Assembly: GCA_016219025.1 (NCBI GenBank)
Contig: JACRCM010000076.1
Coordinates: 1-40,191, forward strand
Source of the DNA: Deltaproteobacteria bacterium
GTDB lineage: Bacteria > Desulfobacterota > GWC2-55-46
Reading direction: 5' to 3'
DNA: 40,191 nucleotides
Position 1 is the first letter of the stretch; each line of letters opens with the position of its first letter. The notes under the pieces are model-generated. The model ran no database searches. It saw nothing but the letters and a program-made list of their open reading frames with translations, and was not told where the DNA came from. Positions 4,683-26,864 of this stretch are shown here, in pieces. Made by a program: the position numbers and the translations under genes.

Positions 4683-4799
4683 GAGAGCCCTGAAAAACCC
4701 TGTTTTTGTCATTGCGAGGAGCTACGATTTACTAGGTAGCCCTATTTGTAAATCGCTTCGCTACGCAATGACGGAAAATACCCCTTTTTCAGGGGTCTC
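4683..4799. mobile_element. 117-bp MITE-like element
   Basis: TIRs GAGAGCCCTGAAAAA (4683-4697) / rc GAGACCCCTGAAAAA (4785-4799), 14/15; flanked by ATATT on both sides (4678-4682, 4800-4804); inner GTCATTGCG...CGCAATGAC inverted repeat. Confidence 0.75.
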
Positions 4800-7096: not shown

Positions 7097-7190
7097 CGTG
7101 ATGCGTGCGCGGGATTTACAGATAGGGCTGCTTTGTAAATCGTAGCTCTATGCGTGAAATGAAAAATCCTTTTACGTATAACGCATCACG
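7097..7190. repeat. dispersed GATTTAC-core repeat, copy B
   Basis: 10-bp inverted repeat cgtgatgcgt/acgcatcacg (7097-7106/7181-7190) bounding a core whose reverse complement (7095-7154) matches 26805-26864 at 58/60. Confidence 0.8.
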
Positions 7191-8854: not shown

Positions 8855-8925
8855 CGAAAATAAAAATGCTCACATGATTTACAAAGTAGCTCTATTTAAC
8901 GTATATGCTGCGCTTTTTATTTTCG
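8855..8925. repeat. dispersed repeat, copy C: inverted repeat enclosing GATTTACAAAGTAGCTCTAT
   Basis: CGAAAATAAAAA (8855-8866) / TTTTTATTTTCG (8914-8925), exact 12 bp; core at 8876-8895. Confidence 0.75.
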
Positions 8926-17295: not shown

Positions 17296-17566
17296 GGCCG
17301 GGCTTTGACAATCATCATATCGCCGCTCGTTGCCGCGGGTTATGCTTTTAATGCGCCCCGGGCCGATAATTTCATTGTAAAAAATACCGATGTGTGAGAA
17401 AATTCAATTATTTGCGGGTGTAGGCTGCGGGGGCACCCATGACAACGCCAAAAGGACGCTGAAAAACTCGAAATCTGGGCAGGCTGCCCTCTGGCCGCTC
17501 GCCAAAGGCGAGCAATATAAAAGGATAACTTCCTTACCAGCCTGACGCAGTCATCAATCTTCCCAT

Positions 17567-17634
17567 CGAGCTACTTTGTAAATCGAGCTACTTTGTAAAT
17601 CGAGCTACTTTGTAAATCGAGCTACTTTGTAAAC
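17567..17634. repeat. 4 x 17-bp tandem array CGAGCTACTTTGTAAAT
   Basis: Units at 17567, 17584, 17601, 17618 (last ends aaac); reverse-complement cores at 17731-17750 and 17793-17812. Confidence 0.95.
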
Positions 17635-17677
17635 CGCAATGATAAAGACGCAATGGGAACCCAGCCAGATGCGAGGC

Positions 17678-17704
17678 CCCTATTAGCCCTATTAGCCCTA
17701 TTAG
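17678..17704. repeat. 3 x 9-bp tandem repeat CCCTATTAG
   Basis: 17678, 17687, 17696, exact copies. Confidence 0.9.
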
Positions 17705-17849
17705 ATAGAGGAGCGACGAATGAGGCGCACGATTTACAAAGTAGCTCTATCTGCTGTGCGCCGCAGTGAGGAGCAACGAAGACAACGAGCAGGATTTACA
17801 AAGCAGCTCTATTGGACGTTTTTCAGCAGCCTGCCAAAAGGACGTGAAG

Positions 17850-19772
17850 ATGAATCAATTCTATAAGAACATCGCCATGTGGCTCATTATCATCGCCACC
17901 GTGGTGTTGATGTTCAACCTCATAAGCTACAAGCAGCCCGGCAGCGATAAGGTCGTCTTCAGCGACTTTATCCAGGAGGTCGAAAAGGGCGGCGTCTCCG
18001 AGGTGGTGATACAGGGCAACGACCTCTCAGGCAAGCTCAAGGACGGCAGGGCGTTCAAGACCTACGCCCCGTTCTATCCCGACCTCGTGACGAAGCTGCG
18101 CGACAGCGGCGTGAAGATATCCGCCGAGCCGGTCTCCGAGGGCATGTCATGGGGGTCTTTGCTCGCCTCGTGGCTCCCGATGGCGCTCATCATCGGCGTC
18201 TGGATATTCTTCATGCGCCAGATGCAGTCCGGCGGGGGCAAGGCCATGAGCTTCGGCAAGTCCCGCGCCAAGCTATTAACCGAGAACCAGCACAGGGTGA
18301 CCTTCAAGGACGTCGCGGGCATAGACGAGGCGAAGGACGAGGTCGAGGAGATAATCGAATTTCTCAAGGACCCGAAGAAGTTCACGAGGCTCGGCGGCAG
18401 GATACCCAAGGGCGTGCTCCTCGTCGGCTCTCCGGGCACGGGCAAGACGCTCCTGGCAAAGGCCATAGCGGGCGAGGCCGGGGTGCCGTTCTTTTCGATA
18501 TCGGGCTCTGACTTCGTCGAGATGTTCGTGGGCGTGGGCGCCTCGCGCGTGCGCGACCTGTTCGTTCAGGGCAAGCAGAGCGCGCCTTGCATCATATTCC
18601 TCGACGAGATAGACGCCGTGGGCAGGCACAGGGGCGCGGGTCTCGGCGGCGGGCACGACGAGCGCGAGCAGACCTTGAACCAGCTCCTCGTGGAGATGGA
18701 CGGCTTCGAGAGCAACGAGGGCGTCATCATCATCGCGGCCACCAACCGGCCCGACGTGCTCGACCCGGCGCTCCTGCGCCCCGGCAGGTTCGACCGCAAC
18801 GTGATAGTCCCCAAGCCCGACGTGAAGGGCAGGGAGGAGATACTCAAGGTGCACGCCGCGAAGACGCCGCTCTCCGGCGACGTGAACGTGGACGTGATAG
18901 CCAGGGGCACCCCGGGCTTTTCGGGGGCCGACCTCTCGAACCTCGTCAACGAGGCCGCGCTCCTCGCCGCGAGAAGGGGCAAGGACAGGCTCACTATTGT
19001 GGAGTTCGACGACGCCAAGGACAAGCTCCTCATGGGCACCGAGAGGCGCTCCATGATAATTAGCGACAAGGAGAAGCGCAACACCGCGTACCACGAGGCC
19101 GGACATACGCTCGTGGCGAGGCTCATACCGGGCACCGACCCCATACACAAGGTCTCCATCATACCCAGGGGCATGGCGCTCGGCCTCACCATGCAGCTCC
19201 CCATAGACGAGAGGCATACGTATAACAAGGAGTATCTCCTCAACAACATCGCGGTGCTCATGGGCGGCAGGGCCGCCGAGGAGCTGATACTGCACCACAT
19301 GACCACGGGCGCGGGCAACGACATAGAGCGGGCCACTGAACTGGCCAGAAAGATGGTCTGCGAGTGGGGCATGAGCGAAAAGCTGGGCCCGCTTACCTTC
19401 GGCAAGAAGGAAGAGCACATATTCCTCGGGAAAGACATGGGGCAGAGGAGAGACTTCAGCGAGCACACCGCCCTTGAGATAGACGCCGAGATAAAGAAGG
19501 TCGTCATGGACAATTATGAGAGGGCCAAGGGCCTGCTTGAGGAGAGGACCGACGCCCTTCACAGGATAGCAAAAGGTCTGCTTGAAAAGGAAGTCCTCGA
19601 CGCAACGGAAATAGACGGCCTCATCGCGGGCGTAGAGGGCGTGGTCAAGGCCACAACTCAGGAGTCATGGCTCGGTTCCGCGCCGCCGGCAAGCGCGAGG
19701 CAGACGGCGGATGATCTGGCCGCTCCCGCGCCGGGGCACGACGCCCCCGCGCTCGGCGTCCCGGCCAAGTAG
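17850..19772 (+). CDS. ftsH: ATP-dependent zinc metalloprotease FtsH
   Basis: [28 protein letters not shown]; start 17850 with AAAAGGACGTGAAG SD; ORF-track N-term 28 aa are repeat-derived. Confidence 0.97.
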
Positions 19773-26796: not shown

Positions 26797-26864
26797 ACGC
26801 ATCACGCATAGAGCTGCGATTTACAAAGTAGCCCTATCTGTAAATCCCGCGCACGCATCACGGC
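26797..26864. repeat. dispersed GATTTAC-core repeat, copy E
   Basis: 26805-26864 is 58/60 identical to the reverse complement of 7095-7154; direct acgcatcacg at 26797-26806 and 26853-26862. Confidence 0.85.

Follow-up and report, generated by a model that had tools for sequence, protein, structure and literature searches.

A 374-bp insert in the 5' untranslated leader of ftsH is best read as an IS5-type MITE that entered with a YTAR-like 4-bp target duplication, later underwent conversion of one end, and is read through from the old promoter; we put the probability of this reading at roughly 87%. A separate, lineage-specific repeat of 17 to 20 bp, which appears to be mobile, would have inserted several times inside this MITE, often in hairpin loops, and one of these insertions would have grown into a variable tandem array. 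The window, by which we mean the whole 40,191-nt stretch of DNA analyzed, belongs to a metagenome assembly of 2.18 Mb in 170 contigs that is 87% complete and represents one isolate of the species.

The insert lies between ftsH and an upstream gene that we take to encode a YihY-like membrane protein (Table 1). The original prediction had placed 12-bp direct repeats around about 374 bp here, and both copies of GCCAAAAGGACG are present at exactly those positions, 100% identical and at a spacing of 386. As it also held, the right copy carries the Shine-Dalgarno sequence AAAGGA 5' of the ftsH start codon (ATG at 17850), and the interior contains arrays and inverted cores: 4.1 copies of a 17-bp unit, 3 copies of a 9-bp unit, and two cores at 17731-17750 and 17793-17812. 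The right terminal repeat is perfect; the left is intact over its inner 9 of 16 positions and altered over the outer 7, which are occupied by the AAGGACG of the left 12-bp repeat. The only long open reading frame in the insert extends the ftsH frame upstream, to a GTG at 17766, and the FtsH encoded in the window is 80 to 89% identical to those of the family.

Table 1. Features of the ftsH leader and its insert (window coordinates)
Feature	Coordinates	Strand	Remarks
Conserved promoter-like block of ftsH (ATTGTAA ... TGTGAGAAAAT)	17373..17405	+	Equal motif spacing in about 20 family members
Left 12-bp repeat	17447..17458	+	G, then CCAA (4-bp duplication in the family's register), then AAGGACG
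Left terminal repeat AAGGACGCTGAAAAAC	17452..17467	+	3 mismatches versus consensus CAGGYTGCTGAAAAAC; outer heptamer altered
Probable MITE insert, 374 bp, noncoding	17459..17832	+	76 BLAST matches in own genome; site empty in relatives
Four tandem 17-bp dispersed-repeat units (minus-strand sequence GATTTACAAAGTAGCTC)	17565..17633	-	
3 x 9-bp CCCTATTAG array	17678..17704	+	Expansion of CCCCTATTAAATAGGGG hairpin; unexpanded in L002
Single dispersed-repeat unit in the loop of GGCGCAC/GTGCGCC	17731..17750	+	Empty form GGCGCACTTTGTTGTGCGCC in L194 and L086
Single dispersed-repeat unit near the right end	17793..17812	+	Empty counterparts ACGAAGCAGATGGNCGTTTTTC in L192, L194, and L195
Right terminal repeat, perfect CAGGCTGCTGAAAAAC	17818..17833	-	
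Right 12-bp repeat with Shine-Dalgarno sequence AAAGGA	17833..17844	+	Ungapped alignment to the congener's single copy
ftsH, 640 aa	17850..19772	+	Product matches FtsH across the family

We compared this leader with those of the congener (G001) and of other family members with a readable ftsH start. Relatives' leaders nearly always contain T-A/T-TTGTAA followed by TGTGACAGAAT or a near variant, with a single ribosome-binding site (RBS). The distance from this promoter-like block to the ATG is 72 to 104 nt in 20 of the 21 genomes measured and 183 nt in the 21st (G011), owing to an insertion of its own. In the window it is 477 nt, so the native promoter-like block does stand far upstream, as had been claimed; subtracting 386 leaves 91 nt, within the usual range and with the RBS unchanged, as had been expected from removal of the insert. 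The insert is absent from the ftsH site in the congener and about 20 other relatives, each with one RBS: the yihY-ftsH region there holds a single copy of the sequence, and a relative with two copies and no insert was looked for and not found. Congener DNA homology resumes at 17836, within the right copy of the 12-bp repeat, and the congener's AACGAAAAAGGGATGTGCAGATG aligns without gaps to AACGCCAAAAGGACGTGAAGATG of the window when the latter is joined across one repeat copy. Judged by these alignments, the segment is an insertion absent from the relatives' site. The ftsH leader of G011 (L028) carries an unrelated insertion of about 100 bp, likewise between the promoter-like block and the RBS.

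With BLAST matches at 76 places in its own 2.18-Mb genome, the insert belongs to a family of noncoding elements 80 to 490 bp long, whose internal array varies from 0 to 5 units between copies. The consensus of the 16-nt ends, CAGGYTGCTGAAAAAC, occurs at 48 sites in that genome with at most 2 mismatches, versus 1 for a reversed control, and exact ends are present in 22 of 30 family genomes (control matches, 0). Among clean family copies, the target duplication is exactly 4 bp in 20 and 5 bp in one, and never longer; the 4-bp duplications seen are TTAG, CTAA, CTAG, TTAA, and ATAG, and the flanking tetramer is YTAR at 97 of 185 ends. A second ftsH paralogue with one in-frame TGA lies at G000:C31:8020-9635 (L024), and a copy of the ftsH-leader MITE starts directly after its CTAA stop.

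IS5 elements are known for YTAR target duplications (PMC10359306). On a viral contig (L327, positions 124 to 1443), the same 16-nt ends, each flanked by CTAG, bound a 1.3-kb segment that encodes an intact 377-aa transposase; this protein has DUF772 and DDE_Tnp_1 domains and scores 291 bits with NF033581 (IS5 family; cutoff, 140). These ends, the IS5 transposase, and the YTAR duplications therefore mark the insert as a MITE with IS5-type ends. The insert and its family show the features of an IS5-type MITE: terminal inverted repeats shared by many copies, the family's 4-bp YTAR duplication, a noncoding body of less than about 600 bp, and ends in common with an autonomous IS5 element, here that of the viral contig and not one of the own genome. 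IS701 is another family with 4-bp duplications (PMC2266710) and seems a less likely source of the MITE ends than IS5, because the L327 transposase scores as IS5. An IS1182 origin was considered and rejected; the ends of that element here are GAGGCTGTGTCGCAA or TGAGACCCCTGAAAAA. The terminal inverted repeat of a separate small element at 4683-4795 had been proposed to share end sequences with the insert: only CTGAAAAA(C) is common to both, and the families differ. The ends of that element, TGAGA.CCCTGAAAAA, match an IS1182-type end in L121/L122. A literature search for the end sequence of the MITE returned nothing relevant.

No IS5 transposase bounded by MITE ends was found in the family's genomes. 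Matches to DDE_Tnp_1 came from five genomes only, were mostly fragments, and were in no case bounded by MITE ends; the own genome, at 87% completeness, yielded no partner transposase and only fragments of other DDE elements. Because no bounded partner was found in the family, we infer mobilization in trans.

We propose that a nonautonomous IS5-type MITE transposed into the ftsH 5' untranslated leader, downstream of the conserved promoter and upstream of the RBS, with an IS5-family transposase probably acting in trans, cutting the YTAR-like site CCAA, and leaving a 4-bp duplication. The outer 7 nt of the left end would then have been overwritten with the bases following the target, most likely through short-tract conversion or template switching between two similar junctions, giving rise to the 12-bp repeat. 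The repeat can be parsed as G-CCAA-AAGGACG, in which CCAA falls exactly at the expected 4-bp duplication if both ends are 16 nt long. The outer heptamer of the left end, CAGGYTG, is replaced by AAGGACG, the same bases that follow the target on the right. Since the two junctions were already similar beforehand (GCCAA.AGG..G(C)TGAA), we favor conversion or a template switch after insertion. Several points count against this explanation: CCAA is one base off YTAR, all three left-end mismatches match the target sequence, the assembly is fragmented and comes from one isolate, and no IS5 transposase with these ends turned up in the family.

The 12-bp repeat had been taken for the target duplication itself, which the family's 4-bp YTAR rule does not support. 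A genuine duplication of 11 to 12 bp, made in a one-off aberrant insertion with the left end truncated to CTGAAAAAC, would account for a perfect repeat directly adjoining the element at either border. We consider it unlikely: among the clean copies, 20 carry YTAR duplications of 4 bp, a single one reaches 5 bp, and none exceeds that, and CCAA is placed exactly where a 16-nt end would put its 4-bp duplication. From these comparisons, the 12-bp duplication is best regarded as a by-product, not as the element's signature. It is very improbable that the whole structure is an assembly artifact joining repeats: the metagenome assembly is fragmented and several contigs end within MITE copies, but the insert is located midcontig, both flanks are the yihY-ftsH locus conserved in relatives, and its interior is unlike that of every other MITE copy.

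With a converted IS5-type MITE in its leader, ftsH probably still uses the old promoter for transcription, and its leader would be some 386 nt longer. With the insert, the leader RNA has a predicted fold of -160 kcal/mol (z -4.9), a closed structure on the paired ends, and the predicted pairing over the RBS and ATG is close to that of the joined-flank leader without the insert. Likeliest on this model is that the insert folds on itself and the RBS stays exposed, with translation little changed. A functional regulatory leader kept for control of ftsH, whether riboswitch- or thermosensor-like or a promoter carrier, would also fit the strong predicted structure, the position between promoter and RBS, and the related element that the congener has upstream of the same ftsH promoter. 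This reading is nevertheless improbable: the insert is absent from relatives, the same element occupies dozens of unrelated places, its fold strength is expected from inverted repeats, and a consensus scan found no sigma-70-like promoter in the region, insert included. As a MITE insertion, the event is ordinary, and its site is a usually important gene; it suggests that an ftsH leader can accommodate some 390 additional bases, provided that they fold on themselves and leave the RBS intact.

Of greater interest than the MITE insertion, and more deserving of pursuit, is the dispersed 20-bp repeat. Both the 17-bp array unit and the inverted cores represent a single sequence, GATTTACAAAGTAGCTCTAT; allowing up to 3 mismatches, the window contains 10 matches to it, versus 0 in 100 shuffles. 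Neither this repeat nor the MITE family with its IS5-type ends figured in the original prediction. A 15-nt core (T or C at one position) has 166 exact occurrences in the own genome and 0 in the congener; elsewhere it occurs 3 times in G037, from another family of the order, and once each in two other genomes, one of these single matches in an unrelated context, and it is found in none of the remaining genomes (48 searched). Over the full 20 bp, with 3 or fewer mismatches allowed, the loci examined contain 163 distinct sites. The copies fall into about 46 host-context groups and avoid open frames, with 40% in a frame of at least 300 nt versus 87% of random positions. Viral contigs contained no exact 20-mer. 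Other 16-mer matches across genome contigs were set aside as mostly chance single matches in unrelated phyla; one true relative, L292 (JACRCI010000010.1, Deltaproteobacteria bacterium NC_groundwater_1642), also has the 20-bp repeat, at low copy number and with one self-nested copy among them.

Elsewhere in the window, copies at 7113-7151 and 26808-26846 are each nested in their own inverted copy, one at 8876-8895 lies in the loop of a hairpin repeat, and the 4683-4795 element contains a diverged 20-bp repeat set, likewise, within its own inverted copy. In L214 (994-1034), a tRNA-Leu gene is adjoined at its CCA end, with no gap, by two tandem 20-bp units.

Thirty-eight of 125 blocks have an empty counterpart in the own genome or in relatives, and two filled/empty pairs (L206 versus L147 and L002 versus L148) match exactly for 18 bases to either side. 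Compared with L194, the loop GGCGCAC-TTTGTT-GTGCGCC of L008 is longer by exactly GATTTACAAAGTAGCTCTA, and these 19 nt also interrupt an inverted unit in L231 (AGCTAC^TTTGTAGATC). Nesting reaches three levels in L150 and L008. A strict ungapped flank-stem score gives only a modest hairpin preference (16% versus 6% at a score of 5 or more). An ensemble test is clearer: 33% of independent contexts have the junction within a predicted hairpin loop, compared with 12% for control positions (permutation p below 0.001), and a rank test of these data is weaker (p 0.08). As modeled, loop siting is a preference and not a strict rule, most contexts lying outside predicted loops. A Y1/HUH transposase was rejected as the mover of the repeat, with 0 matches in the own genome (G000; 87% complete, 13% missing) and 3 in the congener.

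If small repeats turn over between species, the congener's MITE should hold one of its own, and we ran this prediction. The congener MITE copy near ftsH holds CACGCCAAGTGGCGTG, a palindrome present at 12 places in G001 (L306-L311 and G001:C72:1448 among them) and absent from the own genome (G000); among the copies read, it occupies at least 3 host contexts.

One possible account, which we offer tentatively, is that GATTTACAAAGTAGCTCTAT is an independent minimal mobile repeat of this lineage only, making clean insertions of about 19 nt without duplication at the 5' edges of loops, the center of its own inverted copy included, and so producing three-level nests. Its enzyme would not be a recognizable Y1, and congeners may have their own repeats, such as CACGCCAAGTGGCGTG. 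The repeat looks like a recent high-copy burst of a sequence of about 20 bp, with clean filled/empty pairs within one genome, and these pairs make the movement of very small bacterial repeats directly testable.

Among known systems, IS5-family insertion sequences and their MITEs resemble the insert's family in the 16-nt ends, which are those of the IS5-transposase element, and in the CTAG duplication, matching the published 4-bp YTAR (PMC10359306). They differ in that the insert's family is noncoding, without a transposase partner found in the family, and in the 12-bp repeat and altered left end of the ftsH copy. BrickBuilt of Porphyromonas gingivalis (PMC4596501) shares IS5-like ends, a minisatellite (with 23-nt units), an intergenic location, and long predicted stem-loops; its sequence is unrelated, and its 23-nt unit is described within its MITE, whereas the tandem unit of the ftsH insert is also dispersed genome-wide outside the MITE and in other hairpins. 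By analogy, BrickBuilt is the nearest known kind for the insert as a whole. The 20-bp repeat is like REP/REPIN sequences with their RAYT (Y1) transposase in being short, mostly noncoding, hairpin-associated, and high in copy number. REPINs need RAYT (PMC3116915), and a search for a Y1 (RAYT) transposase gave 0 matches in the own genome, 13% of which is missing. By the look of its sequence, the 20-bp unit is also unlike a REP palindrome. The small dispersed repeats (SDR) of cyanobacteria are reportedly the subject of Elhai et al. 2008. As described at second hand in PMC2884548 and PMC3116915, they have units of about 20 bp, dispersed and tandem, that are probably mobile; they belong to another phylum and have another sequence. 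The repeat studied here shares with them a length of about 20 bp with many dispersed copies, and filled and empty sites that imply mobility.
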